Origin: Candidatus Gastranaerophilales bacterium | GTDB taxonomy: Bacteria > Cyanobacteriota > Vampirovibrionia > Gastranaerophilales > Gastranaerophilaceae | Reading direction: 5' to 3' | NCBI GenBank assembly: GCA_944323875.1 | Contig: CALUUH010000020.1 | Span: 1-32,643, forward strand | DNA length: 32,643 nucleotides | Shown here: positions 1-21,371 of the stretch, piece by piece | Layout of the letters: each line of letters starts with the position of its first letter | How positions within the stretch are numbered: position 1 is the first letter of the stretch | Program-made: the position numbers and the translations under genes | The notes under the pieces: generated by a model | What the model was told of the DNA's origin: nothing | Seen by the model: the letters and a program-made list of their open reading frames with translations, nothing else | The model's database searches: none

Positions 1-272
1 ATAAGTAGACGTGTATAAACAGCCTTTGTCCAGTGATTTCTAACATTAAAATCTTTAAAATATTTATCATAATCAATTTTAATAAATTCAATAGAAAAAT
101 TGTCGAAGCTGGTTTTCAACGATTTAATTTTTTCAACATTACCAGGAAAAATGCCGCCATCTAATACATAGAATTCAATAAAAGATTTAGTGTTAGCCAG
201 AATGCTTGCCATAGTTGTTGCAACAAGCGGAGCATAGTTGTTATCACTTGACAGAAATATTGGTATATTCAT
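1..272 (-). CDS. Glycosyltransferase family 8 protein, partial (3' end off window)
   Basis: The reading frame opens at an ATG (272-270) behind a GAGAG Shine-Dalgarno-like stretch and stays open to the window edge, giving about 90 residues beginning MNIPIFLSSDNNYAPLVATT. This is the nucleotide-binding N-terminal part of a GT8 (LgtC/glycogenin-like) retaining glycosyltransferase. The acceptor side and the DxD metal site lie beyond the edge. It overlaps the end of the upstream GT8 gene by 29 bases, which suggests translational coupling at the distal end of the same operon. Its sequence closely follows the N-termini of the next two genes, so it is the third member of a tandem paralogue array. The family call is secure from similarity to its neighbours; sugar donor and acceptor cannot be read from the fragment. 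Confidence 0.85.
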   Translation of the reverse strand, partial: MNIPIFLSSDNNYAPLVATTMASILANTKSFIEFYVLDGGIFPGNVEKIKSLKTSFDNFSIEFIKIDYDKYFKDFNVRNHWTKAVYTRLL

Positions 273-1203
273 GATTTTTCTCTCTTTCAAATTTGATTTT
301 TGTATGCTTTGCGTATAATTTCCAAGTCATTAAGTCTATTTGCATATTGCGCAACAAGTCAGTTTCTCTTTGTCTATTATGAGTTTTCTCATCCAGTTCT
401 CCGTAAAAAGGTGTCATCTTAGCGTAATGCCAAAATTCTTTTAGATTTGGCATAAGATTTGTTTGAGTATTTTCGTTTATTTGCCATGGTCTTATACGAC
501 CAACCATGTGACGCAGAATTATATCCTTGTCATTCTCATAGTATACGAAGTTTGAAGTCAGGTAATTATATTTACGCGGCAAGATTTTATAATTATTGTC
601 GAAACATTTATTTAATAAATCCTGATCAACGCATTTTATTTTATCTTCATATTCTACTTGAATATCCAAAAATTTTTCAAATAATTTTTGACTCCGCCAT
701 TTTTCGCAGTTGATTAATAATACACCGGCATTAAAATATTTGTGAGACGAACTGGAATTCAAATACTCTTTGCGGTGTTGATTCCAGTAACCATCTTCTG
801 TTTCTTGCCAAATCGCTCCAATAATATAATCATCTAATTGTTCATTGTATAATTCTATTATATCTCCAGTCGCAATGATATCAACATCTAAATAAATAGC
901 TTTGTTAATATTCGGTTTCAAATTTGGTATTAAAAGTCTTGAAAAAGTTGATTTGCTCCAATGACCCGTTGCGTTAAATTCTTTAAGAGCTTTATCATAA
1001 TCAATCTTAATAAATTCAATAGAAAAATTGTTGAAGCTGGTTTTCAAGGATTTAATTTTTTCAACATTATCAGGAGAAATGCCGCCGTCTAATACATAGA
1101 ATTCAATAAAAGATTTAGTGTTAGACAGAATGCTTGCCATACATGTTGCAACAAGCGGCGCATAGTTATTATCACTTGATAAAAATATTGGTATATTAGA
1201 CAT
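244..1203 (-). CDS. Glycosyltransferase family 8 protein (319 aa)
   Basis: A GT8 transferase that should move a sugar from a UDP-sugar to a growing glycan in the cytoplasm with retention of configuration. Visible marks are the N-terminal strand MSNIPIFLSSDNNYAPL, the metal-binding D106-V-D108 in AIYLDVDII, and a C-terminal His/Gly/Pro-Trp stretch (RHMVGRIRPW) corresponding to the family's HxxGxxKPW. The open frame runs further upstream to 1236. The start at 1203 is preferred because GGAGG lies nine bases before it and because the protein then aligns with its paralogues from residue one. It overlaps the preceding GT8 stop by eight bases. Large parts, mainly the N-terminal 65 residues and the C-terminal 90, are nearly identical to the next gene upstream, while the middle differs. 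The donor sugar is unknown; UDP-Gal, UDP-GlcA or UDP-Xyl from the same operon are candidates. Confidence 0.9.
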   Translation of the reverse strand: MSNIPIFLSSDNNYAPLVATCMASILSNTKSFIEFYVLDGGISPDNVEKIKSLKTSFNNFSIEFIKIDYDKALKEFNATGHWSKSTFSRLLIPNLKPNINKAIYLDVDIIATGDIIELYNEQLDDYIIGAIWQETEDGYWNQHRKEYLNSSSSHKYFNAGVLLINCEKWRSQKLFEKFLDIQVEYEDKIKCVDQDLLNKCFDNNYKILPRKYNYLTSNFVYYENDKDIILRHMVGRIRPWQINENTQTNLMPNLKEFWHYAKMTPFYGELDEKTHNRQRETDLLRNMQIDLMTWKLYAKHTKIKFEREKNHEYTNISVK

Positions 1204-2131
1204 TAGATAAAGCCTCCGTCTTTCTAGCCTTTTCAATCCATATTTTTAGGTAAATTTCATCAATCTGGGCATTTCGTAATAGTAACGCCTGCTGTTTTGA
1301 TTCATGAGTTTTCTCATCCAGTTCTTCATAAAAAGGTGTCATCTTAGCGTAATGCCAAAATTCTTTTAGATTTGGCATAAGATTTGTTTGAGTATGCTCA
1401 TTAATCTGCCACGGTCTAATTCTGCCAACCATGTGACGTAGAATTATATCCTTGTCATTCTCATAGTATACGAAGTTAGGTGTCAGATAATTATATTTAC
1501 GCGGCAAGATTTTATAATTATTTTCGAAACATTTGTTTAAAATGTCTTGATCGTTCGTTTTTTTTCTATCCTTATATATTTTCTCAATCTCAACAAGTTT
1601 ATTAAATATTCTGTCTTGTCGCCATTGTTTGCAATCGATTAATAAAACACCAGAATTAAAATACTTATGTTTGTCGTTAAATTCCATGCAAATTTTACGT
1701 TCCGGATAAAAAATATATTGGTTAAACTCTTCCCAAACTGCACCAATTGTATAGTTTGTTAAATCTTCATTATAAAGTTCAGAAATATCGCCTGTTAAAA
1801 TAATATCAGTATCAAGGTAAATTGCTCTATTAATTTGCGGTTTTAAATCAGGAATTAGGAGTCTTGAAAAAGCTGATTTAGTAAGACGTTTTGTTAATGT
1901 AAAATCACTCAACATTTTTTCATAATCGATCTGAATAAATTCAATAGAAAAATTGTTGAAGGTATGTTTTAATGATTTAATGTTTTCAACATTATCAGGA
2001 GTAATGCCGCCATCTAACACATAAAACTCAATAAAAGATTTAGTATTAGAAAGTATGCTTGTCATACATGTGGCAACAAGTGTTGCATAATTATTGTCAC
2101 TGGATAAAAATATAGGAATATTTGTTTTCAT
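1196..2131 (-). CDS. Glycosyltransferase family 8 protein (311 aa)
   Basis: Second complete member of the GT8 array. It begins MKTNIPIFLSSDNNYATL, carries the DxD metal site D107-T-D109 in AIYLDTDII, and ends with the same RHMVGRIRPW and FWHYAKMTPFY blocks as its neighbour. The central 100 or so residues, which shape acceptor binding in GT8 folds, diverge from the neighbour, so the copies probably use different acceptors. The ATG at 2131 has only a weak AAGGT-like ribosome site and lies 14 bases after the stop of the GT2-GT8 fusion gene, so it is likely translated by coupling. The C-terminal 30 residues are charged and helical in look, as in several bacterial GT8 proteins that associate loosely with the membrane. 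Family call firm, substrate unknown. Confidence 0.9.
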   Translation of the reverse strand: MKTNIPIFLSSDNNYATLVATCMTSILSNTKSFIEFYVLDGGITPDNVENIKSLKHTFNNFSIEFIQIDYEKMLSDFTLTKRLTKSAFSRLLIPDLKPQINRAIYLDTDIILTGDISELYNEDLTNYTIGAVWEEFNQYIFYPERKICMEFNDKHKYFNSGVLLIDCKQWRQDRIFNKLVEIEKIYKDRKKTNDQDILNKCFENNYKILPRKYNYLTPNFVYYENDKDIILRHMVGRIRPWQINEHTQTNLMPNLKEFWHYAKMTPFYEELDEKTHESKQQALLLRNAQIDEIYLKIWIEKARKTEALSNV

Positions 2132-2145: not shown

Positions 2146-4080
2146 TTAGTTCGGAATTAGAGTTTTAGTTGCACGCAGTTTTTTGTTTTCTTCAAAAACA
2201 ATAGCTTTTACTCGTAATTTAAGCATATCTTTTTGTGGTGTATATTTGACTTGTTTTAGTATATCTTCATAGAATGATGTAAGTTTTGCGTAATGCCAAA
2301 ATTCTTTTATTCTCCTCGAAGGAGGTATATTCTCATGTTCTCCAAAATCAGGAGTGAAGTGCCAAGGCTTATCATTGTTTAAGAAATGCAAAATGGCTTT
2401 ATCTTTATAAGCAAAATGTGTTGGTGGTATATTGTATATATCATCAATACGTTTATAACCGCCATTTTTATTACAGTATATATTTAGGCAGCCTTGATCT
2501 GCATCACCAAGAAGATCGCGATATTGATTTTCTATTTCCAATAGTTTGTCAAATATTTTATCCTTATTCCATAGGGCATTATTGAGCAGTAACACACCTG
2601 CATTAAAATATTTATAATCTTTATTTAATTTAAATTTACTTCTCAATTCTTCTTGCGATAACCAAACTGCAGGTCGTGCTGCAATTGGATATCCTTCCAT
2701 ATCCGTATCATACAAATCTTTAATATCAATGAGTGTAATGGTATCTACATCAAGGTATATGCATTTTGTAAACTCTGGTTTAAATTTGTGTATCAAAAAT
2801 CGATTATAAGTAGATATAGATAAATGCTCTACGCAGGAACGAAAATTAGAAAAATATTTCTCTGTGTCAATTTTTAAATATTCAATATCAAAATTATTAA
2901 ATTTGTTTTTTAATAGCCCGATTTTTTCTTGGTTTTCATCGCTGATACCGCTGTCCAGAATATAAAAATTGCAGAAAGATTTCGTGTTATCACAGACGCT
3001 CGCTATCGTTGTAGCAACGAATGGAGCATAATTGTTATCCGCAGCTAGAAATATTGGAATGTTTGTTTGTTTTTTGTTCATTTGTTGTTTTTTGTCCTGA
3101 TTATCCAATATAGTTTTCCTTAATTCCAGCAATCTTGGAGATAAGTTATATTTTGCGCAGTATTCTGGGTAAGAGTTAGTTTCTATAAACTGTTTTGCAA
3201 AGAATATATCAAAACTACTATACAAATATTTTTTTGCCCAAATACTGTCCTTGATTTTGTTAAAAAACTCTTTAAATTCATAATATGTCGTTTCTGTTAT
3301 ATAGCGTTTACATAGATTAGTCGCTAAAAAGAGTTTAATGTTTTTAGATTGTAATAAATTATTTTTACATAAATATTTATATAATAACTCATATATTTTT
3401 ATAATTTTAATTTCGCTGTTTGGCTCTAATTTTATTATGCTATCGGAGCGTTGGCGATAATGATAGTATGGTCCTTTAAAAACATAAAATTCATCAGTAT
3501 AAATATGTGTAATATAATGATAATAAATATCTTCCCAATTGTATCCATCAGGAAAGCGTAACTTATATTCATCTAAGTAAGATTTTTTATATAGATATGC
3601 CCAGGTCATCCAAGGGTAATACGTGACGGACTCCTCACAGTTTACAAAATTTCCGTCATCAGCCAGATCTTTGTAATCATCATAACATTGAATAATACTT
3701 CGTTCAGAAAGTTCTTTTACAATGCTGGTATTTAGAACCATTGGTGAAGATGTTTTTTTTATTGTTTCTACCATTGCATAAATATAATTCTTATCAATCC
3801 AGTCATCTGAATCCAGAAAATAGATATATTCCCCTGTTGCAAAATCAAGTCCTGTATTTCTTGCAGTAGAAAGTCCGCCATTTGTTTCGCGGTTGATTAT
3901 TTTAATGCGTTCATCTTTAGCGGCATAGTCCTGTAAAATTTTGTCGCAATTATCAGGAGAGCAATCATTGACACAGATAATTTCAAGATTTTTATATGTT
4001 TGATTACAAACACTTTCTAAACAATCCGGAAGATATTTTTCTACATTATAAATCGGAATAATAACAGATACTTTACACAT
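2146..4080 (-). CDS. Two-domain glycosyltransferase: GT2 fused to GT8 (644 aa)
   Basis: A bifunctional enzyme predicted to add two sugars in succession. Residues 1 to about 230 are a GT-A inverting family 2 transferase: start MCKVSVIIPIYNVEKYL, VND after the second strand, and the D90-S91-D92-D93 metal site followed by W. Residues 231-330 are a helical linker. From M334 a complete GT8 domain begins (TNIPIFLAADNNYAPF), with metal site D434-V-D436 and a C-terminal HFLNNDKPW version of the HxxGxxKPW motif. The GT8 part starts at a methionine exactly where the free-standing paralogues start, so the fusion looks like an in-frame joining of two full genes. The gene overlaps the stop of the GT2-HAD gene upstream by eight bases. 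Acceptor and donor are not deducible; UDP-sugars made by the operon are the natural guess. Confidence 0.9.
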   Translation of the reverse strand: MCKVSVIIPIYNVEKYLPDCLESVCNQTYKNLEIICVNDCSPDNCDKILQDYAAKDERIKIINRETNGGLSTARNTGLDFATGEYIYFLDSDDWIDKNYIYAMVETIKKTSSPMVLNTSIVKELSERSIIQCYDDYKDLADDGNFVNCEESVTYYPWMTWAYLYKKSYLDEYKLRFPDGYNWEDIYYHYITHIYTDEFYVFKGPYYHYRQRSDSIIKLEPNSEIKIIKIYELLYKYLCKNNLLQSKNIKLFLATNLCKRYITETTYYEFKEFFNKIKDSIWAKKYLYSSFDIFFAKQFIETNSYPEYCAKYNLSPRLLELRKTILDNQDKKQQMNKKQTNIPIFLAADNNYAPFVATTIASVCDNTKSFCNFYILDSGISDENQEKIGLLKNKFNNFDIEYLKIDTEKYFSNFRSCVEHLSISTYNRFLIHKFKPEFTKCIYLDVDTITLIDIKDLYDTDMEGYPIAARPAVWLSQEELRSKFKLNKDYKYFNAGVLLLNNALWNKDKIFDKLLEIENQYRDLLGDADQGCLNIYCNKNGGYKRIDDIYNIPPTHFAYKDKAILHFLNNDKPWHFTPDFGEHENIPPSRRIKEFWHYAKLTSFYEDILKQVKYTPQKDMLKLRVKAIVFEENKKLRATKTLIPN

Positions 4081-6568
4081 TTATAAGCTCCTTGTTATTA
4101 TTTACTTTAGTAACTATGTTTGAATATAAAAGTGTTTTGTAATTAGATTGTTCAACATTTGAAGCATGTTTAACCTGAGATAAAAAATATTTATCTGAGC
4201 TATCTAAATTTTCCCAGTAATTAACTAAATAATTAAGCACATTAGGTAATTGAAAACTGAACTGATTTGCTTTCATATATTTTATATAATCATTTACAAA
4301 ATCTAATTCACCATCTTCAATAAATGAGAATACTTTATGGCGTTTTACCTCATCAGAACTAAGGGGTTGCAGAAAAACAGGTTTCCCGTTTAACATGTCT
4401 ACTATTGGATCTTCAGGAGATGTCATTAATAACTCAATTAAGTCCCAGTTAAATCCAACTGTACCTCCGCTTTTACCAAAAAGATTTATATAGTTATATT
4501 GGTAATTTAATTCTACTGCAAGATATATGCCAATAATATCTTTATCTGTTAAAAATTGTTCAATAAGTTTTTGTGCACTGAATAATCTTGTACAAGTATC
4601 AACAAGTCCTATTTTATTTCCCAAAAGTGATACAGAGTCAATATACTTTTTGTATTCATTTGCTGAAAATTCGTTATATTCAGTATTTTCTTGCAAGCAT
4701 AGCCTACTTAACTGCCTTTGAGCATAAATATAATGATTTTTGGCTTTACAATTACCTTTCAATAAAGGATAGATTTTGTTTAGTATATATCCATCCCGAG
4801 CGACAAAAAATAAGTCTGTTAATTCTCGTATTTTAGCAATATCTATTATTGTTTGCATGAATGCTAAAACTAACGGGCCACCATACTGATAACCCAATTT
4901 ATACCAGTAGTTTACGTTTTTAGGATTGACATCATTAAAAACTTGCAAACTGATTACAGTATTAAAAGTTTTATCTTTATTTGTTTGCCAGAATATTCTG
5001 TTTTTTTCATTTGTAACACTGTTTAAGTAGCGATCACGTAAAATCTGGTAATAAAAAGTGTCAATTCCCGCTTTGTTTGCATTAACTATGTCAGACTGAT
5101 AATTGTCACCTATATGCAATATTTTTCCTGCAGGCACTGCTAAGTCATTAATTATATACTTATATAGATTTCCTGTCGATTTCGTTTTTCTGATTTCTGA
5201 AGAAACATATATTTTAAAGTAATTGTCATAACCATTGGCTGACAAAACTTTTATCAAAAAATCTTTGCTTAAATACATATCCGAAGTTATAATAATCGTT
5301 TTCTTCTTATCAAGGGCATATTTGTATGCTTCGTATATTTCCTTATTTTGCGTCAAAGTTTCAGCTTCGATTTTTAATTCTAATTCTTTAAAGTGTGGAT
5401 ATAATTTATTTAACTGCCCTGCATATATTTCATCAAAAGTTACATCTTCATAATCTTTATGTTTTAGTTTGACTCTTACTCTGGCCATTTTTTCTTCAAA
5501 CTGTCTGTATTCAGCAAATTGCGACATTTGCTTTTGTAGCCCAAGATAGGCAAATAAATCGGTAGGCTGCAAAAAAGGGCGTAATAAAAGAGTATCAAAT
5601 ATATCAAAGGATATAATATCATGATTGTCAATTAAATCCTTTAATCGTTCTATATCAAAAGCATAAGTAGGAGTACTAGATGTTAGAAATAGTTTATAGA
5701 TTGAAGGGGCAATGTTTTTAACATATTGTTTAAATTCTTCTTTATATTTGATTTGTTGGAAAAAATTTATTCCCTTCAGTTTAACTAAATCTCCTGTAGA
5801 GGATAGAGTATTCCTTAATGAATCCTGTATAACATTTATAAACCAAAAACCTAAAACATAGCAATAAGATTTGGAAGATATATTTGCGGTGTTTAAAAGT
5901 TTCTGAATCATACTTAACCCCTCAAATTTATCTTTAATTTGAGGAAGTTCAGGATAACCGGAGGTAATAGAGTTTTCGCGTGTTCTGATATTTATATACG
6001 TATCGACAATTTCAACTTTGTTTGCAAGAAGTGCAAATTGTACTGTAAATACGGGATCTTCCATATCTGATAAATTCGGAAAACGGATATTGTTTTTACT
6101 TATAATTTCACGCTTAAAAATGGCGCTGCAATATGAGTAGGCAAAATTATTTTTATCTTCTTTTATCTTATCATTCAAAAGTTTATCAACATAACTGTTG
6201 TCAGCATTCTTATAATTGCCTTTAGCAGCATCCGCGCCGGTTTCAATTGCCTTTTGGTACAATTTTTCGTAGAAATCCAAATCAGGGTAGTCATCAGAAT
6301 CAACAAAACCGATATATTCACCTGTTGCTATTTCTATACCGGCATTTCTTGCAGCGGCTGCCCCTTTATTTTCTTCAAAGCTGATAACCTTTATTCTGTT
6401 ATCCGTTGCCGCATACTGCTTTAATACCTCAAGAGAATTATCAGTAGATGCATCATTTATGCAAATAATTTCAATGTCAGACAGTGTCTGGTTGCAAACA
6501 CTGTCAAGACATTTCTCAAGATATTTTTCTGTGTTATATACAGGTATAATAACAGATACTTTAGGCAT
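4073..6568 (-). CDS. GT2 glycosyltransferase fused to HAD-like domain (831 aa)
   Basis: Residues 1 to about 230 are a family 2 glycosyltransferase (MPKVSVIIPVYNTEKYL, metal site D90-S-D-D). Residues 312-510 form a HAD-superfamily unit with the nucleophile motif F321-D-I-F-D-T, the second motif ITSD ending at D430, and the acidic motif HIGDNYQSD (D488, D493). Large HAD proteins of this look (COG5610-like) occur in cell-surface polysaccharide loci. Residues 510-831 are a further conserved region (FFVARDGYILNKIYPLL) that often follows such HAD domains. The HAD part keeps the Asp nucleophile and the Asp two residues on, so a phosphatase or phosphotransferase activity on a sugar phosphate or lipid carrier is possible but unproven. 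The start ATG is 10 bases after the stop of the PqqD-like gene, and the gene overlaps the next gene by eight bases. Confidence 0.85.
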   Translation of the reverse strand: MPKVSVIIPVYNTEKYLEKCLDSVCNQTLSDIEIICINDASTDNSLEVLKQYAATDNRIKVISFEENKGAAAARNAGIEIATGEYIGFVDSDDYPDLDFYEKLYQKAIETGADAAKGNYKNADNSYVDKLLNDKIKEDKNNFAYSYCSAIFKREIISKNNIRFPNLSDMEDPVFTVQFALLANKVEIVDTYINIRTRENSITSGYPELPQIKDKFEGLSMIQKLLNTANISSKSYCYVLGFWFINVIQDSLRNTLSSTGDLVKLKGINFFQQIKYKEEFKQYVKNIAPSIYKLFLTSSTPTYAFDIERLKDLIDNHDIISFDIFDTLLLRPFLQPTDLFAYLGLQKQMSQFAEYRQFEEKMARVRVKLKHKDYEDVTFDEIYAGQLNKLYPHFKELELKIEAETLTQNKEIYEAYKYALDKKKTIIITSDMYLSKDFLIKVLSANGYDNYFKIYVSSEIRKTKSTGNLYKYIINDLAVPAGKILHIGDNYQSDIVNANKAGIDTFYYQILRDRYLNSVTNEKNRIFWQTNKDKTFNTVISLQVFNDVNPKNVNYWYKLGYQYGGPLVLAFMQTIIDIAKIRELTDLFFVARDGYILNKIYPLLKGNCKAKNHYIYAQRQLSRLCLQENTEYNEFSANEYKKYIDSVSLLGNKIGLVDTCTRLFSAQKLIEQFLTDKDIIGIYLAVELNYQYNYINLFGKSGGTVGFNWDLIELLMTSPEDPIVDMLNGKPVFLQPLSSDEVKRHKVFSFIEDGELDFVNDYIKYMKANQFSFQLPNVLNYLVNYWENLDSSDKYFLSQVKHASNVEQSNYKTLLYSNIVTKVNNNKELINV

Positions 6569-6578: not shown

Positions 6579-7049
6579 CTACACTTCCATTTTAGCTTCA
6601 CGTTCTGCGGTTTCTTCTTTTGAGTAACCTATTGATTCTTTTTCCGGTGTCCAGCCGGTTTCTTCTTTTATTTCGTGGATCGGATCTGCAAGAAGCAATT
6701 CTTGCGCATCATTGTATTCGTTTACATCCATTTCAAATTCATCTTCTGCCGCAATGTTCGCATCTATATTCGCGTCTGCATCTGATGCTGCACCTTCCAT
6801 AATCAGTTCATATCCAACCATTGTGTCGATGAATTTTGTTAATCTTGCTTCAACATCTGCAGGTGCCCCGTTACAAGATTTTAATGCTGCCAGTACTTTT
6901 TCTGAAGATGCACCGTTCATCAGGTTTTCGTAAACTGCTGTTCCTAAACCGTTTAAGCCGTAATATATACCGGTTTCTGAGTTAATGATGATTGCAATGC
7001 CGTCTGTTACATCCGCAAACATTTTTGAATCATTTAATACATAGTTCAT
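6579..7049 (-). CDS. PqqD-like (RRE-fold) protein with acidic C-terminal tail (156 aa)
   Basis: Residues 5-85 read as a PqqD-family domain, the winged-helix fold that binds leader peptides in RiPP pathways. Diagnostic stretches are DGIAIIINSETGIYYGLN and AVYENLMNGASSEKVLAAL. Typical PqqD proteins are about 90 residues. This one has an extra tail, residues 86-156, rich in Asp, Glu and Ala and then in Glu/Lys (DEFEMDVNEYNDAQELLLAD, ETGWTPEKESIGYS). The start ATG at 7049 has AGGAG seven bases upstream and overlaps the end of the kinase gene by 20 bases. A second, related PqqD-like domain is at the end of that kinase, so the pair likely arose by duplication. The role is inferred: it may present a peptide or protein substrate to the kinase or nucleotidyltransferase. 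No substrate is identifiable, and the tail itself could be a target. Confidence 0.75.
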   Translation of the reverse strand: MNYVLNDSKMFADVTDGIAIIINSETGIYYGLNGLGTAVYENLMNGASSEKVLAALKSCNGAPADVEARLTKFIDTMVGYELIMEGAASDADANIDANIAAEDEFEMDVNEYNDAQELLLADPIHEIKEETGWTPEKESIGYSKEETAEREAKMEV

Positions 7050-8556
7050 GTTCTTTCTCCTTTATTTCTTCTTTTATTAATTGTCTGTGTTGTTCTTCTG
7101 CATGTTCAACAAAAGATAATTTATAATTATTTTTTACTGCAAAATCAGCATTTATACAAGGTAATTTATCAGAATTACCCGATTGGGTAAATATTCCTTT
7201 AGCCTCTAATGCATTCATAAACAGATGAAGTTCTTTTTGAATATTTTCATTTTTATCTTCAAATACTTTTAGAGCCGCGGCGATATTTTCACTTGAAACT
7301 CCATTGAGTAAATTTTCATAAAGATTCGTTGCAAATTCATTCATAGAATATATAATTCCGGTTTCTGTGTTCAGAATATTTGCAAGATCAAATGTTATAT
7401 CTATCGCAATTTTATCAGCTTCAATAATTTTATTTTCCTCTTTGTCGAGATTGTTCATGAAATCTCTCAAAAATTCGGTATTTGCATCAATATTGTGGCA
7501 TAGATTGAACTTATAAAATGGCAGATCCTTTATCATATTCATCATCTTTTTTACAGTCCAATTTTCGCAAAGATCATTTGTCTGGCATAAGGTTGATTGA
7601 ATAAGATGTACCATTGCTCGTCCTTTTTCAGCACTTGTACAAGGTCTGATACTTGGTTTTTCGTCTGTCACAATCTCCGGAAATATCGCAATTTTTATCG
7701 GATAATTCATTCTGAATTCGTCGTGGAAGTTTGCAATATTAAACACATATTTATCTTTTCTTGCATTGTTTGAAACGAATCTTGAGTCGCCTAAATAATC
7801 ATACAGTTCGTTGTACATTTTCGGTGACAACGTAATTATTGAATAAATCGGACTTGATAAAAGTTCTTTGCCGTTTTTGTGCAAAATTAAATAGTCATCA
7901 GAAACATATTCAAAACCTTTCATCATTGAAAGCACCGCAAGGGTTGACTTGCCGCGTTGTCCGCGTGCACACATCAATATTCCGTCGCCGTTAAGCCCGA
8001 TAACAGCACCGTGCGCAAGATTTGATGTCTCTGTTTTTAAAATGTTGTTAAAGAATTGAACAAATAAATGGCCTTCTTTGATAAATTCCTCTGGCTCAAG
8101 ATTGCCAACTCCGTAATAATATGTATTGTTTTCGTAATCATTTCCGATGAAAAATCCTGCCTCTGATTTTACGTCAATGATTGGTTTAACCTTGGAAATG
8201 CTTTCATCAATTACACGGATATCCCAGATCGTCTTTTTAGAGTAAAGCAAATCAATTCTTAATCTCATATTGAATTTGGGATTGAATTTGGGCAAAAGAT
8301 TTTTCCCGAATTCAAATGCATTAGCTTCTTTCCAGAGAATAAGCGTTGCATCATATTTTGGCGCATTATCTCTCAAGACAAACGTAAGCTGTTTTTCAAT
8401 ATGCGGCAAAAATTCTTCACTATATCCGATTAGACGAACAACCTTGCAGCCAAGATCAACATATTTTACAAACTTTTGTTCTAATGTCGATAAATATTTA
8501 TCAACATTATTAAAACACTCTCTTATTTCATTTTTTGTTAAATCTTTATAATTCAT
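7030..8556 (-). CDS. HPr-kinase-like ATPase with C-terminal PqqD-like domain (508 aa)
   Basis: The central part carries a P-loop at residues 197-204 (ARGQRGKS followed by T) after the strand GAVIGLNGDGILMC, and an acidic pair in YVSDDYLIL (D220, D221) at the place where HPr kinases have their DD motif. This is the pattern of HprK-related kinases, including those that phosphorylate lasso-peptide precursors. Residues 1-180 are an unassigned N-terminal domain. Residues 381-455 are a PqqD-like domain (LNTETGIIYSMNEF, LYENLLNGVSSENIAAAL), followed by a charged tail of about 50 residues. The frame also allows a TTG at 8559, but GAGG five bases before the ATG at 8556 favours the latter. It follows the nucleotidyltransferase stop by ten bases and overlaps the PqqD-like gene. 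Kinase activity and target are inferred. Confidence 0.75.
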   Translation of the reverse strand: MNYKDLTKNEIRECFNNVDKYLSTLEQKFVKYVDLGCKVVRLIGYSEEFLPHIEKQLTFVLRDNAPKYDATLILWKEANAFEFGKNLLPKFNPKFNMRLRIDLLYSKKTIWDIRVIDESISKVKPIIDVKSEAGFFIGNDYENNTYYYGVGNLEPEEFIKEGHLFVQFFNNILKTETSNLAHGAVIGLNGDGILMCARGQRGKSTLAVLSMMKGFEYVSDDYLILHKNGKELLSSPIYSIITLSPKMYNELYDYLGDSRFVSNNARKDKYVFNIANFHDEFRMNYPIKIAIFPEIVTDEKPSIRPCTSAEKGRAMVHLIQSTLCQTNDLCENWTVKKMMNMIKDLPFYKFNLCHNIDANTEFLRDFMNNLDKEENKIIEADKIAIDITFDLANILNTETGIIYSMNEFATNLYENLLNGVSSENIAAALKVFEDKNENIQKELHLFMNALEAKGIFTQSGNSDKLPCINADFAVKNNYKLSFVEHAEEQHRQLIKEEIKEKEHELCIK

Positions 8557-8566
8557 CAATGCCTCT

Positions 8567-9769
8567 TTAGTTTAAACAGGTTATGCCGTAATCACGTTCT
8601 TTCAAATCTTTGATTAAGAATTTTATCAGATGCGGGTGGCCGCGTAAAAGTTTTAGCGTAAAATATGCCGGTTTTAATTTCAGATACTCAGAAATTTCTG
8701 ACGGATTTTTCAGTAAATCGCTGACTTTCATCGGTCTGCATTTTGTTCTTAAATCGTTCAGATAAAATCTGTCATACATGATTTCGATTGAATAATTTGA
8801 AGTTTCTTCTTCAAAAATTATGTTGTTTTGAATATTTTTAGGCAAAATATTCGGACTGATTTTGTTGATGAATTTAAGTGCAAAATTCATCTGTATTTCC
8901 ATATTAATTGCTTTAGCATTGCTGATTACGATATTCCAGTCAAAATCAGGTTTGCTGTTCATAAGAAAATCGCAGTCAAAGAGCGCATATAAAAGACCTG
9001 CTTTGCTGGTATTTTCTTTTAAATTTCTTGCAAGATTTATCAGAGTGATAAACAATAAATCTTCATTTGACGGAATGAGTGATTGAACCCCGAAAATGTT
9101 TGCTTTTCTGGCACGCTTGTACAATAATTTTGCAAGCTTAGGCCCCATTTTAGAGTCCATTTCAATATACTTATGCAAATCAAGCGCACCGGCTTCCTGT
9201 CCTATTTCGTGGAAATCAACGGAATGATCATACATTTTGTCATATTCATATTCACCGGTATCAAGAACAATTTTTACAGCTTTGGCAAATTCTTCATCTT
9301 TAACCAGAGCATCAATGTCGCCCATTACGCGCGGCAAATCAGGGCGAAGATATTTCATTGCGCCGCCCTTTAATATCATCGGTGTTATTCCGTTTTCATT
9401 AAGTGCTCGGCCTATTTTGCTATAGTGTGAAATAATTTTCAGATTGTGAAATCTGAAATATTTTAACAAACCTTTTAAACGCGGACCTTCATAGTCTGAG
9501 AATTTTAAATTCGGGTGCTGCTTCATAAAGTATGCGAGCATTAAAGCTTTTGCGCCGCCTTTTACTTCAATATCCCAAATTTTAAGTAAATTATTTAATT
9601 CTTCCTGAGTAGGGTTTGGCGTGAAAAACAATTCCAGAAGTTTTCTGTCCTCCGGTTTCATAACTTCTTTATAGAAATTTTCGATAAGAGCATCTGTTAT
9701 TGATATATTATTATTCAAATAACCGCTATCAATCACCTTATCTATTTCTTTTTTCCATAAAACTGCCAT
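8567..9769 (-). CDS. Nucleotidyltransferase family protein, NTP_transf_5-like (400 aa)
   Basis: The core motif is MILKGGAMKYLRPDLPRVMGD followed by IDALV: a Gly-Gly pair, an invariant Arg region, and the metal-binding D151-I-D153 of the pol-beta-type nucleotidyltransferase fold. The third acid is probably D197 in GALDLHKYIE. This matches the uncharacterised NTase family (PF14907) that accompanies HprK-like kinases and PqqD proteins in lasso-peptide and exopolysaccharide loci. The N-terminal 100 and C-terminal 170 residues are helical. The protein is predicted to transfer a nucleotide or nucleotide-derived group to an unknown acceptor in the cytoplasm. Ribosome site AGGGG lies 11 bases before the ATG. 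The 109-base gap to ugd is the largest within this gene train and is very AT-rich; I could not find a convincing second promoter in it. Confidence 0.75.
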   Translation of the reverse strand: MAVLWKKEIDKVIDSGYLNNNISITDALIENFYKEVMKPEDRKLLELFFTPNPTQEELNNLLKIWDIEVKGGAKALMLAYFMKQHPNLKFSDYEGPRLKGLLKYFRFHNLKIISHYSKIGRALNENGITPMILKGGAMKYLRPDLPRVMGDIDALVKDEEFAKAVKIVLDTGEYEYDKMYDHSVDFHEIGQEAGALDLHKYIEMDSKMGPKLAKLLYKRARKANIFGVQSLIPSNEDLLFITLINLARNLKENTSKAGLLYALFDCDFLMNSKPDFDWNIVISNAKAINMEIQMNFALKFINKISPNILPKNIQNNIIFEEETSNYSIEIMYDRFYLNDLRTKCRPMKVSDLLKNPSEISEYLKLKPAYFTLKLLRGHPHLIKFLIKDLKERDYGITCLN

Positions 9770-9878
9770 TATTTTTCTAACCCCTCTTGTGGGAAATGTA
9801 TTAATAATTTTAACTATATTTTTAATATACTATAAACAGGTATTGATAAAATATATTATTAATATTTGTAACTACTTC

Positions 9879-11177
9879 TTATCGGCCGACACAATAGTAT
9901 TCAAATCCGCGCTGTTTAAGTCTTTCTGCATTGTATTGATTACGGCCGTCAAATATTATTGGTTGTTTCAATAACTCATTTATTTTATCAAAATCCGGAC
10001 GTCTGAACTCGTTCCATTCAGTCAGAAGCAGCATGCAGTCTGCATCTGTTAAAGCCTCATACGCTGATTTTGAGTAAATTATTTTATCTTTGAAATAGAA
10101 TTTTGCGCATTCAAAAGCTTTTGGATCATAAGCCTGAATTTTTGCTCCATGTTCCAGCAGTGCATTTATAATTGTAATAGCAGGCGCTTCGCGCATGTCA
10201 TTTGTTTTGGGTTTGAATGCAAGCCCCCATATAGCAAAAGTCATGCCGGATAAATCTTCACCAAATCTTTTGAGAATTTTTTGTATAAATATTTGCCGCT
10301 GTCTTTTGTTAACATCATCTGCCGCTTGCAAAAGTTGGTAGTCGCATCCGTTGTCTTTTGCGGTTTTTAATAATGCTTTTACATCTTTAGGGAAACAGCT
10401 TCCGCCATATCCTAATCCCGGGAATAAAAATTGTGAACCGATGCGTTTGTCTGAACACATGCCAATTCTTACCATTTCAGCATTTGCTCCGACTTTTTCA
10501 CAAATATTAGCTATTTCATTAGCATAAGATATTTTGACTGCAAGAAATGAGTTAGCCGCATATTTAGTCATCTCAGCAGATTTTACATCCATAATTATTA
10601 CAGGGTTACCCGTACGCAGGAACGGTGAATATAAGTCTTGCATAATTTCTGTTGCGCGATGAGAATTAGACCCGATGACAACTCTGTCCGGCTTCAAAAA
10701 GTCATCCACTGCAGCACCCTGTTTAAGAAATTCCGGATTAGAAACCACATCAAATTCTTCATTAGTTTTTGACTTTATAATTTCGGTTACTTTTTCGGCT
10801 GTGCCAACCGGAACAGTGGATTTGTCAACTATTACTTTGTATCCGTTAAGAGCTTCGCCGATACTTTCCGCCACCTGATAAACGTATTTTAAATCAGCAG
10901 AACCGTCCTCACCTTGAGGAGTGCCTACTGCAATAAAGCATACAAGAGAATTTTGGACTGCTTCTTTCAAATTATCAGTAAAAGAGAGTCGTTTTTCTGC
11001 TACATTTACTTTGATTAATTCTTCAAGTCCCGGCTCATAAATCGGGACAATACCCTGTTCAAGCTGTTCAAGTTTTTTCAAATCATTATCAACACAAATT
11101 ACATTGTTGCCCATTTCCGCAAGACATGTTCCTGCAACGAGTCCGACATATCCGGTCCCGATTACACATACTTTCAT
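9879..11177 (-). CDS. ugd: UDP-glucose 6-dehydrogenase (432 aa)
   Basis: Oxidises UDP-glucose to UDP-glucuronate with two NAD+. The N-terminal Rossmann motif MKVCVIGTGYVGLVAGTCLA binds NAD. The catalytic cysteine is C261 in GLGYGGSCFPKDVKALL, and the central helix with K205 in MTKYAANSFLAVKISYANE is intact. Length is normal for bacterial Ugd. The ATG directly abuts the stop of the UDP-glucuronate decarboxylase gene at 11178, so the two are co-translated: Ugd makes the substrate and the decarboxylase consumes it to give UDP-xylose. Gene order galE, uxs, ugd is a compact sugar-nucleotide supply module for the transferases downstream. Confidence 0.97.
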   Translation of the reverse strand: MKVCVIGTGYVGLVAGTCLAEMGNNVICVDNDLKKLEQLEQGIVPIYEPGLEELIKVNVAEKRLSFTDNLKEAVQNSLVCFIAVGTPQGEDGSADLKYVYQVAESIGEALNGYKVIVDKSTVPVGTAEKVTEIIKSKTNEEFDVVSNPEFLKQGAAVDDFLKPDRVVIGSNSHRATEIMQDLYSPFLRTGNPVIIMDVKSAEMTKYAANSFLAVKISYANEIANICEKVGANAEMVRIGMCSDKRIGSQFLFPGLGYGGSCFPKDVKALLKTAKDNGCDYQLLQAADDVNKRQRQIFIQKILKRFGEDLSGMTFAIWGLAFKPKTNDMREAPAITIINALLEHGAKIQAYDPKAFECAKFYFKDKIIYSKSAYEALTDADCMLLLTEWNEFRRPDFDKINELLKQPIIFDGRNQYNAERLKQRGFEYYCVGR

Positions 11178-12122
11178 CTATTTTCCCCCTCTTAATTTTT
11201 TGTCAAAGTATTCAATTGTTTGAGCCAAACCATCTCTGATATCAACTTTTGGCTCCCAGTTTAACTCTTTTTTAGCGAGAGTTATATCAGGTTTTCTTCT
11301 GCACGGATCATCACCCGGTAAAGGTTTATAAACTATTTTAGAATTAGAGTTAGTCATTTCAATTATCAACTCTGCAAATTCAAGAATAGTTCTTTCTGAC
11401 GGATTGCCGAGATTAACAGGGCCGATAAATTTTTGCGGGTTGTTCATCATTTTTATCATACCGTCAACAAGGTCGGAAACATAACAGAATGAGCGGGTTT
11501 GCGAACCGTCGCCGTAAATCGTTATGTCATGGTTTTGAAGCGCCTGAACAATAAAATTAGAAACAACGCGGCCGTCGTTCATATCCATATTCGGACCGTA
11601 AGTATTAAATATACGTATAATTCTCGTATCTACATTATTCTGCCTGTGGTAATCCATCATAAGCGTTTCTGCACAGCGTTTGCCCTCGTCATAGCAGCTT
11701 CTTATACCTATCGGGTTAACATTGCCCCAGTAGGTTTCTGTTTGCGGATGTATTTGCGGATCCCCGTAAACCTCGCTTGTTGATGCCTGTAAAATTGTCG
11801 CTCTGCAGCGCTTGGCAAGCCCGAGCATATTAATGCAGCCCATAACTGATGTTTTTATTGTTTTAATTGCATTGTATTGATAATGCGGCGGGCTTGCAGG
11901 GCATGCCAGATTGTATATCTGATCAACTTCCGCAAAATATTCTTTTGTAATGTCATGCCGCACAAGTTCAAAATGATCGTTTGAGAGAAGATGTCTGATA
12001 TTATCTTTAGAACCTGTGAAAAAATTATCTAAACAGATAATGTCATTACCTTCGTTTAAAAGTCTTTCACATAAATGGCTGCCGATAAAACCTGCACCGC
12101 CTGTTATTAATATTCTTTTCAT
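11178..12122 (-). CDS. uxs: UDP-glucuronate decarboxylase / UDP-xylose synthase (314 aa)
   Basis: An extended short-chain dehydrogenase that decarboxylates UDP-glucuronate to UDP-xylose. Evidence is the NAD-binding [17 protein letters not shown] at the N-terminus, the catalytic Y144-D-E-G-K148 ([12 protein letters not shown], hallmark of UXS enzymes), T115/E117 in STSEVYGDP, and [10 protein letters not shown]. There is no membrane anchor, unlike eukaryotic Golgi forms. The start overlaps the galE stop by four bases (ATGA), and the stop is directly followed by the ugd start. It is distinguished from dTDP-glucose 4,6-dehydratase by YDEGK and by its ugd neighbour. UDP-xylose in this operon implies a pentose-bearing surface glycan. 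Confidence 0.95.
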
Positions 12123-13129
12123 AAATCAGACTCCTTATTGATCAATTTTTGTAAACGACATTCCCAGTCGTAAGCTGTTTTAATACTCTGTTCAATAGTT
12201 TTAGCCGGCTGCCAGCCAAGCAGAGTTTTTGCTTTTTGCGCATCTGCATATAATTTTGCAGGATCCCCTGCGCGGCGCGGCGCTATTTCAACAGGAATTT
12301 TTTTATCTAAAACTTTTTCGCATGCATCAAAAATATTTTTTACACTGTCGCCCTGCTCTGTACCGAGATTAAACACATCGGATTTATTTTCTTTGTTAAG
12401 GTACTCAAGTGCAAGCCTGTGCGCGCGGGCAAGATCTTCAACATTCACATAATCTCTGATACATGTTCCATCAGGCGTGTTGTAATCGTTGCCGAAGATT
12501 TTGAATGTCTGTCCTTTGCCAAATGTGGATTTTAATATATTTGGTATAAGGTGAGTTTCAGGATTGTGCCATTCTCCGACCCTGCATTTTTCATCACATC
12601 CGGCAACATTAAAGTAACGCAGTTTGATTGATTTAAGCCCGTATGCAATGTCGTAATCCGCCATAATTCTTTCCACCATGAGTTTGGACGCCCCGTAAGG
12701 ATTAATCGGATTTTGCGGATGTTTTTCATCTATCGGAGTGTATTCCGGTTCGCCGTAAGTCGCACAGGTAGAGGAGAACACAATTTTTTTAACATCATGC
12801 TTTAGCATTGTATCAAGCAGGTTAAGAGTGCCGTAAGTGTTGTTGCGGTAATATTTAGCCGGATTAAAAACACTTTCTCCGACAAGTGAAAACGCTGCAA
12901 AATGCACAACGGCTTCTATATCATATTTGAAAAAAAGCTTTTCAAGATCATCAAGGTTTCTCAAATCTCCTTTTTCAAAACTTACATGCCCGATTGGTTT
13001 AAGAGTTTCAATAGTTTCAATATGTCCTGTTTCAAGATTATCAAAAATCACAACGTCATATCCTGCGTTAAGAAAATTAATAGCAGTGTGACTTCCGATA
13101 TATCCGGCCCCTCCGGTAATTAAAATCAT
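12119..13129 (-). CDS. galE: UDP-glucose 4-epimerase (336 aa)
   Basis: Interconverts UDP-glucose and UDP-galactose. Visible are the NAD-binding [17 protein letters not shown], the catalytic S120-T121 and Y145-G-A-S-K149, RYFNVAGCD and the C-terminal [12 protein letters not shown]. Length is typical. The ATG has GGGAG nine bases upstream and is the first gene of the minus-strand train. No promoter close to consensus is obvious: TTCACT and an AT-rich TAATAA/TAATAT stretch lie in the region 13150-13195. Together with uxs and ugd it gives the operon UDP-Gal, UDP-GlcA and UDP-Xyl. It could also accept N-acetylated sugars, which sequence alone does not settle. Confidence 0.97.
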
Positions 13130-14137: not shown

Positions 14138-14194
14138 CCACTTACATGAATATTAAAGGATAGCTGAAAGAATTAATCCATTACCCATATGGCT

Positions 14195-14223
14195 ATAATT
14201 ATTGTATTGCATACAATTATTAT
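14195..14223. promoter_or_regulatory. 29-bp near-perfect palindrome upstream of the GH13-like gene promoter
   Basis: Arms ATAATTATTGTAT and ATACAATTATTAT match at 12 of 13 positions around a TGC centre. The element ends four bases before the -35 box at 14228, the usual place for an activator site. It lies between divergent genes, so it could act on the response regulator as well. The regulator is unknown. Confidence 0.5.
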
Positions 14224-14227
14224 TTTT

Positions 14228-14256
14228 ATGACATTTATTATTGATTATGCTATAAT
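14228..14256 (+). promoter_or_regulatory. Sigma-70 type promoter of the GH13-like gene
   Basis: ATGACA (14228-14233), a 17-base spacer, and TATAAT (14251-14256) preceded by TGC, giving an extended -10. Predicted transcription start near 14263. This promoter lies inside the N-terminal part of the longest open frame and so supports the downstream ATG at 14294. Confidence 0.75.
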
Positions 14257-14293
14257 AATTATCAGAGATAGTATTACAGTTGAGGGATATGCG

Positions 14294-16582
14294 ATGCTAA
14301 ATTTTATTTTTGGTAAAAAAGAAACTAAAACAGACAAATGCGGACATTTAAACCAAATTTATTCAAAACTTGTTGAAAAATACAATTTTGACAGCATTTC
14401 TGACGAGAGAAAAAAAGAACTTTCTGAACTTATAGAAAAAAACGGATATCTTCCTTATCCTCATATCAAAGTTCTTGAAGAGTTGACAAATGCGGAAACT
14501 CTGTTCGGACTTCAAATAAAATGGAAGCAAAACAATGTTTTCAAAGACGGAAAATTTGTATTTGATAATGATAAAATAAGCGTTTTTACAAGAAATAACA
14601 CCAAAAATTCAGACTGGATTAAACGCGAAGGACATAACATAAAACTTATCAATCTGGCCGGACTCGGAAATGGCAACACTTCAAAAGAACCGGGAAAATT
14701 CTTTGACTGGCTGAAACAGTTGCTCATTTTGCCGACCGGTAATTTGGAAAATAATATCTTTAATACAACGATTTATTTAATTCCGTTCCATCCGAGGGAA
14801 TTCGGCTGTGCATACCTTCCCAAAAGCACAGAAGTCAGCGAAAATCTTTTGGATCTGGAACTCAAAGGTCTGACTGATATGGACGCAAAGCAGCAGGTGC
14901 AGACTTTTATCACAATGGCACAGCTTGCCGGCCACCCTGTTATTTACGATATACTGCCGCAGACCGGAAGATTTTCCAAAGCTGTTCTTGCAAATCCGCA
15001 TATCGCACGCTGGTTTGATATAAATGAACTCAATATTAAAATAGATGAGGCCGTTGAAAAAATTGCATCTGACCTATCGCCTGAATATGACAGTGACGAT
15101 ACCGAATTAATAAAACGCATTTATCGTCAGGCACAGCAGGGCTGTCTCGGGGATTTGAGCGAACATTATCAATCTTTGTTTAATCTGTTTGATGAAAAAA
15201 TGGCAGAGGTTAAAAAAGAATTATCAAATAAAATGTTAGAACAGCCGCTGCAGCAAAAAATACACAAACGTGTAAAAGAGATTGTGGCAAGAATTGAGGA
15301 AGTAAATTCAAATAAAAAGCTTGAAGAACAAGATATATCTAAACATATAGATATAATACAAGAACTTATAAAAACCGGTTTGTGGCCGGCTCCTGGCGGA
15401 GCATGGTGTTCGGCCGGCGTTCCTGTTTATGACAAAATGAGTGAATGCGGCGGATACCCGACATTTAAACATTACGATTACAAAGGCGAGGACGTAACGG
15501 ATTTTGCAAATCTTGATTGCCAAACCCCATATTATTTCGTAAACCTTGAGAGCGGAACTTATAATAAAGAGGTTATTGACTTTTTTCTGAATGCAATGAA
15601 AGCTCTTCAAAAAGATTATAACTTTGACGGTTTCCGTGTAGACCATATTGACCATATCGTAGATAAAGTATCGGAAAAAGACGGTACGCCGATAAGTTAC
15701 CGCGCGCCGCGAAAAGTTTTAGGCGAGTTGAATAAAATGATGAAAAATGAGATACCTTATTTTGCAACACTCGCTGAATACATGCTCTGGGATGATTTTC
15801 TCAAAGAATATCATGAAGATATGAAATTCGATCTTCTCTGGGGCAACGACATTGTTTCCCAGTCAGATAAAAATCCGGAAAATATCGTTGCTGATAACCA
15901 GCATTTAGCAAATTACAATCTGGCACTTAAAAATTCCGATTACCTGTCAATCTTAAAAACATATAACAATCAAGACGGTGAATTTCGCAGTATAGACCAG
16001 TATCCGGGGCAGCTTGGCGAGGACGGTGCTTTATATAAATGGTTTAAGTACAAATTACTCCCCGGCGGCAAATATGCACAGCGTTCAATGTTGTATGTAG
16101 ATGGTGATGAAAGCTTTACCAAACGAGGTATCGAAAGCGTTATAGGTGAAGAAATTTCAATGCCGCGTGAAAATAATATTCAATTCTTTGAAAAATTTAA
16201 TGCAATTGATAAATTAGTAAAATCTCAGCCTATAATAACTGACGGCGAAGCTCAAATTATCTGTCAGGATGATGACGGTTTTGTATCATGGATTATTACA
16301 AAAGAGCCGCTTAAAACAGCCTTTTTAATAACTTCAAACTACAAATATCCTACAGAAAAAGTCAACGTCACCGATGAGAACGGAAATTCTTACAAAGAAA
16401 TTGTTCACGGCAAAAGCGTTTACAACAAAACCGTACAAATCCCTTGTGATTACACGGTAGAGAATGAATATGTTCTTGTTGACGGAGAATATCAGCCGCA
16501 GCCGCTCAAACTTGACGGAAATCACGTCGAATTCGGCGAACTCAAGCCGGGTGAATTTTCTATCATTGAGTTAAAACGTTAA
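14294..16582 (+). CDS. Divergent GH13-like (alpha-amylase superfamily) protein (762 aa)
   Basis: The catalytic barrel shows the GH13 landmarks in order. YDILPQTGRFS is region I-like. D450 in FDGFRVDHIDHIVD is the putative nucleophile region, with Arg two residues before. E495 in FATLAEYMLWDDF is the putative acid/base, and D561 in KTYNNQDGEF the third acid. Residues 1-180 and a helical insert near 230-340 have no clear assignment, and the last 120 residues look like a beta-rich C-terminal domain. It probably acts on cytoplasmic alpha-glucans such as glycogen or maltodextrin; no signal peptide is present. The start at 14294 has GAGGG seven bases upstream. The longer frame from 14189 would add an Ile-rich stretch that is only promoter DNA. 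The exact activity (hydrolase, branching or transferase) cannot be decided. Confidence 0.7.
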   Translation: MLNFIFGKKETKTDKCGHLNQIYSKLVEKYNFDSISDERKKELSELIEKNGYLPYPHIKVLEELTNAETLFGLQIKWKQNNVFKDGKFVFDNDKISVFTRNNTKNSDWIKREGHNIKLINLAGLGNGNTSKEPGKFFDWLKQLLILPTGNLENNIFNTTIYLIPFHPREFGCAYLPKSTEVSENLLDLELKGLTDMDAKQQVQTFITMAQLAGHPVIYDILPQTGRFSKAVLANPHIARWFDINELNIKIDEAVEKIASDLSPEYDSDDTELIKRIYRQAQQGCLGDLSEHYQSLFNLFDEKMAEVKKELSNKMLEQPLQQKIHKRVKEIVARIEEVNSNKKLEEQDISKHIDIIQELIKTGLWPAPGGAWCSAGVPVYDKMSECGGYPTFKHYDYKGEDVTDFANLDCQTPYYFVNLESGTYNKEVIDFFLNAMKALQKDYNFDGFRVDHIDHIVDKVSEKDGTPISYRAPRKVLGELNKMMKNEIPYFATLAEYMLWDDFLKEYHEDMKFDLLWGNDIVSQSDKNPENIVADNQHLANYNLALKNSDYLSILKTYNNQDGEFRSIDQYPGQLGEDGALYKWFKYKLLPGGKYAQRSMLYVDGDESFTKRGIESVIGEEISMPRENNIQFFEKFNAIDKLVKSQPIITDGEAQIICQDDDGFVSWIITKEPLKTAFLITSNYKYPTEKVNVTDENGNSYKEIVHGKSVYNKTVQIPCDYTVENEYVLVDGEYQPQPLKLDGNHVEFGELKPGEFSIIELKR

Positions 16583-19946: not shown

Positions 19947-21347
19947 TTAAGCTGCTTGTCGTTTCATTTCTCTGTAAGATTTCAGACCTTCTACCCAGTT
20001 TTCCACGATATTAACATCGTTTTCAACAACACTTTGCGGCAACGCTGCGTGGTGAATTTTCGGGAGAAGATAATCTTCTGTATAGACTATTGATCCAGAA
20101 TAGTCATCGTCCGTATCATTGCAGATAAATAACAGTTTGCCGTTTGGCTGTTGTTTAACCCCTGTTATTGTTATTTCGTGGCCGTTAATGATTTTGTTTG
20201 TTTCATCGGTCTGAGTATAGCCGATAATAACATTTTCGCCCATTGCAAGTGCTGAGATTATCTGTTTTTTCATTGTATTAAAATCGGTTTCATAACCTGT
20301 GATACGTGCATTTTCATCTACTGTCTGATAAGTCATTGATATTTTATTTTTATCTTCGACAACAGATTCAGTGAAGGTTTTTTCAAATTCAATAAGTCCT
20401 TTATCGTTCTGGTTAAACTTACCGCCGCGTGTGTCAGTCAAAGCATCATAGGCTTGTTGTGAGCCTACCTGCATTAGCGTTGACTGCATTAATACGTCTA
20501 TTACTGAGCGCTCGCCCGGATCACGGTGAGAATTTTGTATCTGAGCACGAAGTATGGCATTTTTATCAGGGGCAAAAGTTAATTCAGCCGTGTGATAATT
20601 GTCTGCTTTGAACGGCACTTCAAAAGCATTCAAAAGCCAGACCGCGTCTAAAACATTGTCCGCAAGATTACTCAATTTTATTTCTTTTTGAACAGAAAGT
20701 TTTGGAGAACTTAGACTTTCCGCAAATCTTACAAATTCAGCAGGGTGCTTTTGAGCGAGGTTGAACTCAATACTTGCCGCAACACAGGTGCCTGAATGTT
20801 CAAGATTAACATTGGAGTTTGCCATTCCACGCTGTATGAGATTGGTAGTTGAAGGGTTAAATTCAGGGTGTTTTTCAGCATAACGTTTAAGCGCTTCGGC
20901 CTGATATTCCTGCGGAATATCACCGAATTGCTGCGTAATTAAATACGGATTGGAAATTGTTTCAATTGCCTCTTTTAATATCACTGCATTATCCAGCCCT
21001 TGAGCACGCGGAGTTGTGGAGATTTTATACAAATTATCAAGAACAGAAGATCTGTCATTTGACTCGTTATTCAGAAGCACACCTGTTTTTAAAAGCTTAT
21101 TCAGTTCTTTTTTAGTCGTCTTGTCAAGCTGTGAAGTTAAATATTTGTATTTTTCTTTCTCATCTTTTGTTCTAAGTTCAGTATTGAGAGTGGCTTTATA
21201 GCTTTGAGAACTTATGTTTTCAGAAGCTGCATTGTTGACAGCGGCGGCCTTGAATGCAGGAGCAGTGTTTTTCACCATGCCTGTACGGGCAATTCCGCTT
21301 GTGCTATAATTATATTGTTGATTAATAGGGTTAACTGAATACAACAC
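19947..21347 (-). CDS. Predicted papain-like (Cys/His/Asn) protein, family not recognised (466 aa)
   Basis: I do not recognise a named family. Seen from the GTG start, residues 1-50 are polar and rich in Asn, Ala and Ser, with no signal peptide. HSGTCVAASIEFNLA places C188 at the head of a helix, as in papain-like enzymes. INGHEITITGV gives H390 on a strand, and LLFICNDTDDDYSG gives N410 about 20 residues later. The order Cys, His, Asn and the GH-I-I-TG pattern are those of papain/C39/transglutaminase folds, so a cysteine peptidase or related amidase is a reasonable inference. The open frame extends to 21401, but a TATAAT box at 21371-21366 lies within that extension. GGAG at 21359-21356 is eight bases from the GTG at 21347 and only two from the ATG at 21353. 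Confidence 0.55.
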   Translation of the reverse strand: MLYSVNPINQQYNYSTSGIARTGMVKNTAPAFKAAAVNNAASENISSQSYKATLNTELRTKDEKEKYKYLTSQLDKTTKKELNKLLKTGVLLNNESNDRSSVLDNLYKISTTPRAQGLDNAVILKEAIETISNPYLITQQFGDIPQEYQAEALKRYAEKHPEFNPSTTNLIQRGMANSNVNLEHSGTCVAASIEFNLAQKHPAEFVRFAESLSSPKLSVQKEIKLSNLADNVLDAVWLLNAFEVPFKADNYHTAELTFAPDKNAILRAQIQNSHRDPGERSVIDVLMQSTLMQVGSQQAYDALTDTRGGKFNQNDKGLIEFEKTFTESVVEDKNKISMTYQTVDENARITGYETDFNTMKKQIISALAMGENVIIGYTQTDETNKIINGHEITITGVKQQPNGKLLFICNDTDDDYSGSIVYTEDYLLPKIHHAALPQSVVENDVNIVENWVEGLKSYREMKRQAA

Positions 21348-21365
21348 TACCATAACTCCACTACA

Positions 21366-21371
21366 ATTATA
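21366..21371 (-). promoter_or_regulatory. -10 box (TATAAT) of the papain-like gene
   Basis: A perfect TATAAT on the minus strand about 18 bases before the start codon. No good -35 hexamer is present at 16-18 bases, the upstream stretch being a T-rich run. It implies a very short leader and argues against the longer open frame. Confidence 0.5.

Follow-up and report, generated by a model that had tools for sequence, protein, structure and literature searches.

The nearest described counterpart of the locus considered here is the phosphopeptide machinery of linear polyphosphorylated peptides (LPPs) and paeninodin. In the RRE-marked LPP clusters of Bacillota, which lie in capsule loci, the kinase LppK polyphosphorylates a Ser of its precursor, LppN had no activity in a heterologous host, and the biological role of such capsule-locus phosphopeptide systems is stated as unknown (Popov et al. 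2026, PMC13381572). For pseudomycoidin, phosphorylation is by PsmK and hexoses are added by PsmN, and a His-Lys-Asp-Asp set of residues is required in lasso-peptide kinases (review PMC9266682).

The window, a stretch of 32,643 nts that is the whole of one contig (C20) of a 1.94-Mb genome from Gastranaerophilales (Cyanobacteriota), gut-dwelling relatives of cyanobacteria, carries a nucleotidyltransferase (NTase), an HprK-like kinase with its own RRE, and a standalone PqqD/RRE protein. Their genes are part of a minus-strand glycan gene train, GalE – SDR – UDP-sugar dehydrogenase – NTase – kinase – PqqD – GT2/HAD – GT2/GT8 – GT8 – GT8, which extends to the contig end (Table 1). Since the window is one entire contig and a GT8 is cut off at the 3′ end of the operon, the absence of a partner gene from it proves nothing. 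With moderate confidence, the three-gene cassette is interpreted as an RRE-guided module of Cyanobacteriota for protein or peptide phosphorylation and phosphate-glycosylation, related as a sister type to the machineries of paeninodin and LPPs. The genes had been described from the letters alone as adjacent and overlapping; position and strand are as given, but overlap is confined to the end of the kinase gene and the start of the PqqD gene (20 nts), the NTase and kinase genes being 7 nts apart. The GT2 gene starts 10 nts downstream of PqqD. Though the kinase start is listed as TTG (8559), ATG at 8556 is probably the correct one. Of the enzymes encoded upstream, the dehydrogenase is likely to supply UDP-glucuronate and the SDR enzyme is, by position and family, presumably UDP-xylose-synthase-like.

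Table 1. Features of the gene train in the window, with positions of NTases and radical SAM-like proteins in related loci (numbered within each locus)
Feature	Position	Strand	Evidence
Further GT8-like ORF, cut by contig end	3-290		
GT8 glycosyltransferase	244..1236	-	Pfam
GT8 glycosyltransferase	1196..2131	-	Pfam
GT2-GT8 two-domain glycosyltransferase, same operon	2146..4080	-	Pfam
GT2 glycosyltransferase with C-terminal HAD-like region	4073..6568	-	Pfam 2.1e-41
Conserved PqqD C-terminal tail, aa 109-156	6579..6725	-	Identity, pLDDT, kept in Cyanobacteria
Standalone PqqD/RRE protein, 156 aa	6579..7049	-	Pfam 2.5e-7; TbiB1 fold Z 11.6
HprK-like kinase with fused C-terminal RRE/PqqD domain	7030..8559	-	Pfam, fold, catalytic residues
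PF14907 nucleotidyltransferase (NTase), 400 aa	8567..9769	-	Pfam 5.5e-23
UDP-glucose/GDP-mannose dehydrogenase family	9879..11177	-	Pfam
SDR family sugar-nucleotide enzyme	11178..12122	-	Pfam families
UDP-glucose 4-epimerase GalE	12119..13129	-	TIGR01179 431 bits, cut-off 262
NTases of the DxD comparison	L130 6367-7431 and 14199-15473; L164 8894-9943		
Radical SAM-like examples	L019 13707; L032 4851-6992; L034 32-958; L026 7714-8667		

Among 41 related loci, almost all of them from Gastranaerophilales and most of them from MAGs, 33 have NTase–kinase–PqqD in this order, contiguous on one strand, which is not due to chance; the co-conservation anticipated for the three genes is thereby borne out. 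The other eight loci comprise two contig edges, one inverted NTase, one degenerate copy and four with dispersed genes. Where the order is broken, usually either the contig stops or the missing gene is at another place in the genome: in G103 the kinase lies on a different contig from NTase plus PqqD, the two contigs accounting for two of the 41 loci, and in two other genomes (G001 and G209) the NTase is elsewhere. Six of the seven genomes of the family without PqqD that were tested also lack the NTase (the exception is G004). Co-occurrence at the loci is partly, indeed mostly, physical linkage. The proposed tie to glycosyltransferases also held: in 24 of 37 loci no other gene of the locus matches the window GT2 as well as the one directly after PqqD. 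A second, decayed cassette (L035, 4277-6339, in G003:C3), with the kinase cut at 290 aa, no PqqD, an intact NTase and upstream sugar-nucleotide genes much like those of the window, is on a contig that also carries an intact cassette.

A profile of PqqD with its conserved C-terminal tail has matches in 40 of the family's 383 genomes (15 of 41 genera), and one of the tail motif matches 27 of 385 Cyanobacteriota genomes. In the phylum sample the tail is present in every kinase-positive genome searched for it, and in four extra tail genomes HprK-like matches adjoin it. In the true Cyanobacteria examined in detail, PqqD ends roughly in [YFH]xDMx[DE]LLxLDPIH[DE]..GWP..K; these PqqDs are divergent, have a shorter form of the tail and adjoin an HprK-like kinase and mostly PF14907-like proteins too. 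Crinalium epipsammum PCC 9333 has PqqD–NTase–kinase on a 44-kb plasmid, the only one among the plasmids searched with a PqqD-plus-tail protein, and the viral contigs searched had no relative. The sampling beyond Cyanobacteriota, which covered plasmids, viruses and one alphaproteobacterial order, gave PqqD-plus-tail in 2 of 153 genomes of that order (a third match is weak and doubtful); this distribution suggests transfer, the assignment resting on MAG labels. The full cassette is at 7884-9885 of locus L022, in a MAG labelled Alphaproteobacteria, and in a second genome of the same order (G766) a tailed PqqD is found at a short open frame; either transfer or misbinning would explain these genes. 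The statement that such a modification system had not been described for this type of organism stands within the literature searched, but its novelty is narrower, as the same trio is present in true Cyanobacteria and its close kin, the LPP systems, have been reported from Bacilli, where they lie in capsule loci (PMC13381572).

The NTase scores 82.3 bits with PF14907 (cut-off 31.2) and has the active-site pattern KGG...GDID...DLH (K134, G135, D151, D153 and D197), of which the DxD and the third D are retained in about 40 of 45 relatives. A PDB sequence search with it returned lincosamide nucleotidyltransferases only, at chance level, and its putative reaction is modelled on that of its counterparts in the described systems. 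In Crinalium and a relative, the NTase adjoining PqqD is without the DxD (SNFHLLV) and the second NTase of the Crinalium locus retains it (FNDLDILV); judged from these motifs, the two may be an inactive/active pair.

The kinase has an N-terminal domain (residues 1-175), a P-loop kinase domain (178-377) and a C-terminal RRE/PqqD domain (382-460). By sequence its Hpr_kinase_C match is weak (6e-4, below Pfam's cut-off), its score with the HPr(Ser) kinase equivalog TIGR00679 is 17.1 bits (cut-off 240), and a PDB search found no match. In its AlphaFold model (mean pLDDT 73, with the P-loop region of low confidence) residues 178-377 superpose on HprK/P with Z 8.8 and an rmsd of 3.6 over 133 residues, and the model suggests that only the fold is shared with HPr kinase/phosphatase. 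The best fold matches are to PEPCK (Z 9.7), whose fold is known to be related to that of HprK, and were not taken to indicate function. H183, K204, D221 and D222 are invariant (48-49 of 49 relatives), in agreement with the suspected link to paeninodin-type kinases. Residues 382-460 are PqqD/RRE by Pfam (2.4e-5; 25.0 bits, cut-off 23.4), and their modelled fold matches the lasso B1 protein TbiB1 with Z 8.5. This RRE retains a relic of the start of the PqqD tail, without DPIH, as if it had been copied from a gene for a tailed PqqD. An apparently conserved C-terminal ‘ELCIK’ is merely the coding overlap with the PqqD start.

The HprK fold, the constant coupling to one GT2 gene and the finding of no precursor in 43 loci would also suit a regulatory module, in which the kinase would phosphorylate a glycosyltransferase or other biosynthetic enzyme and so switch glycan synthesis, as HprK/P does HPr, with the NTase perhaps nucleotidylating the same target. 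However, RRE domains otherwise recruit substrates for peptide-modifying enzymes, the kinase has the H-K-D-D set of lasso kinases, and there is no obvious reason for a regulator to have a PF14907 partner; regulation of this kind is considered unlikely.

Standalone PqqD scores 31.4 bits with PF05402 (cut-off 23.4); all three proteins fall in the families to which the sequence-only reading had assigned them. Its model is mostly confident for residues 1-112 and matches TbiB1 over 83 residues; lasso B1 proteins of the TbiB1 type, matched by both RRE folds, were solved with leader peptides. A feature absent from the earlier reading is its conserved C-terminal tail, YxDAQELLLADPIHEVKEETGWTPEK, with the core motif YNDAQELLLADPIHEIKEETGWTPEK at aa 112-137. 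Mean pairwise identity is 84% for aa 109-138, 47% for the fold (35-85) and 34% for the linker, and the tail is predicted to be disordered (pLDDT below 50 for residues 116-142). Where its residues are identical, the codons vary as much as elsewhere (0.48), so that selection on it acts at the protein level; an RNA or DNA element was ruled out, synonymous change being as high as in the fold. The tail is outside all NCBIfam and Pfam family models scanned, including those for lasso RREs (88 or fewer positions). No Ser, Thr or Tyr in it is universally kept across Cyanobacteriota: Crinalium has Phe and L168 has His in place of its Tyr, and L034 has lost the Ser that follows the motif. With no hydroxyl residue kept throughout, a universal phospho-acceptor was rejected, and the tail looks like a docking motif rather than an acceptor. 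L167 has a natural fusion of PqqD, tail and kinase in a single protein of 649 aa, with a second, weak PqqD-like stretch between PqqD-tail and kinase; an apparent PqqD–GT2 fusion (L112, in G082) contains unknown bases and was left out. Inserts that resemble repeats, share small ORFs and may be a mobile repeat element lie around and after PqqD in several loci of one genus (L092, L094 and L095).

Potentially PqqD could itself be the acceptor, phosphorylated in its tail or N-terminal region and bearing a glycan primer, with RRE and substrate as one polypeptide. No other small protein is always present, conservation of its disordered tail far exceeds that of the linker and of most of the fold, and the 43 loci yielded no other precursor. 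The changes of Tyr and loss of Ser noted above, and the internal position of the tail in the L167 fusion, tell against this; lineage-specific sites or the conserved N-terminus could possibly serve, but the acceptor role is judged improbable.

Within about 8 kb around the 43 loci there is no conserved small precursor ORF, only repeats and HTH proteins, and none with the LPP leader YxxPxVLxHQxIxFET; a small ORF co-occurring with the cassette, which had been suggested as a check, did not materialise. No B2 leader peptidase or asparagine-synthetase-like cyclase is among the operon and flanking window proteins scanned, nor was either type recognised as a recurring family in the locus neighbourhoods, as the remark that protease, cyclase and evident precursor are missing had it. 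Neither an SpI-type leader peptidase nor an MsbA-like transporter is a recurring family among the cassette neighbours. Multi-TM proteins are few in 40 loci (two are MsbA-like by eye), and the scarcity of membrane exporters or polymerases near the cassette is consistent with cytosolic assembly. The window operon has no radical SAM enzyme; the genome has 19, of which the three inspected, on contigs C36, C21 and C27, have unrelated neighbourhoods. A radical SAM-like family of about 310-350 aa recurs in 15 cassette neighbourhoods (Table 1).

Because the scan spanned only that distance, precursor, leader peptidase and exporter could lie beyond it, the product being a secreted linear phosphopeptide as for LPPs and the glycan genes bystanders. 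LPPs with the same kinase, RRE and NTP transferase in capsule loci, and an ABC transporter in the Crinalium locus, accord with such a classical RiPP cluster, but no precursor-like small ORF was found, GT2 is more constant than any transporter and lasso RRE models lack the tail, making it quite improbable. Least probable, and given very little weight, is PqqD as a self-priming carrier, its RRE fused to a tail that kinase and NTase modify and the whole serving the operon's glycosyltransferases as base for a phosphate-linked glycan assembled in the cytosol, which if true would be a novel mode of initiating a surface polymer in bacteria.

A discrete RRE, an HprK-like kinase, an NTP transferase, capsule-type loci and the lack of a macrolactam cyclase are common to LPP clusters and the present loci. 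LPP clusters have, in addition, a recognisable precursor with a YxxP leader, an SpI-type leader peptidase and an MsbA-like exporter, none of which is constant here; the RRE–kinase fusion, the DPIH tail and the constant GT2 characterise the present system and may set it apart from LPPs. With paeninodin/pseudomycoidin lasso tailoring (PadeK, ThcoK, PsmK/PsmN; PMC9266682) it shares the H-K-D-D kinase, an NTase-type partner and a B1-type RRE, but not the B2 protease, the cyclase or a precursor with a C-terminal Ser. Kinase and PqqD are below the family cut-offs of the HPr-rel-A, lasso and SynChlorMet models. The HPr-rel-A kinases (TIGR04352) have the HprK-like fold in common with the present one, and the sequence-only reading had drawn an analogy from kinase, PqqD and NTase close to exopolysaccharide genes, but membership, which had been entertained, fails at 22.8 bits (cut-off 200), and here there is an extra RRE domain and tail. 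SynChlorMet (Scm) cassettes, known for two radical SAM enzymes, also have PqqD-like and HprK-like proteins, with weak ScmD and ScmC matches here; radical SAM-like proteins are in only the 15 loci mentioned.

By analogy with the activities of LppK and PsmK/PsmN, the expected chemistry of the cassette is phosphorylation of a polypeptide and decoration of that phosphate. In the favoured RRE-guided scheme the RRE of the kinase, of standalone PqqD or both would bind a leader-like stretch within a polypeptide whose gene lies elsewhere, and the kinase would phosphorylate a Ser of that polypeptide. The PF14907 enzyme might then attach a sugar or nucleotide to the phosphate, as PsmN appears to do, and neighbouring glycosyltransferases could extend the glycan with UDP-sugars from the upstream gene products, the disordered DPIH tail perhaps docking kinase, NTase or GT2 to the RRE–substrate complex. 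A phosphate-linked glycan on a cytosolic polypeptide is favoured as product since precursor, peptidase and cyclase were not seen, GT2 recurs, UDP-sugar genes are upstream (in the window genus) and membrane proteins are few. It is this setting that is new, a kinase–RRE–NTase core with no visible precursor, protease, cyclase or constant exporter and yet a recurring glycosyltransferase pointing to glycan attachment. A kind of machinery so far seen mainly with phosphorylated peptides of Bacilli would with it reach a further group of bacteria. Against the RRE-guided scheme are the lack of a conserved small ORF in the 43 loci, the inactivity of LppN in a heterologous host and the DxD-less NTases of some cyanobacteria. 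The question is open to testing, since the DPIH tail offers a brief motif to mutate and the set is present in a named strain, Crinalium epipsammum PCC 9333.

Elsewhere in the window, two large ORFs (14189-16582 and 19947-21401, of 797 and 484 aa) have no Pfam match at 1e-4. At 25059-28655 there is a [FeFe]-hydrogenase-like protein with a possible PAS region, together with a SpoIIE-type phosphatase and small proteins (25059-25298 and 28392-28655) that are ferredoxin-like by eye, and these genes resemble a sensory hydrogenase cluster.
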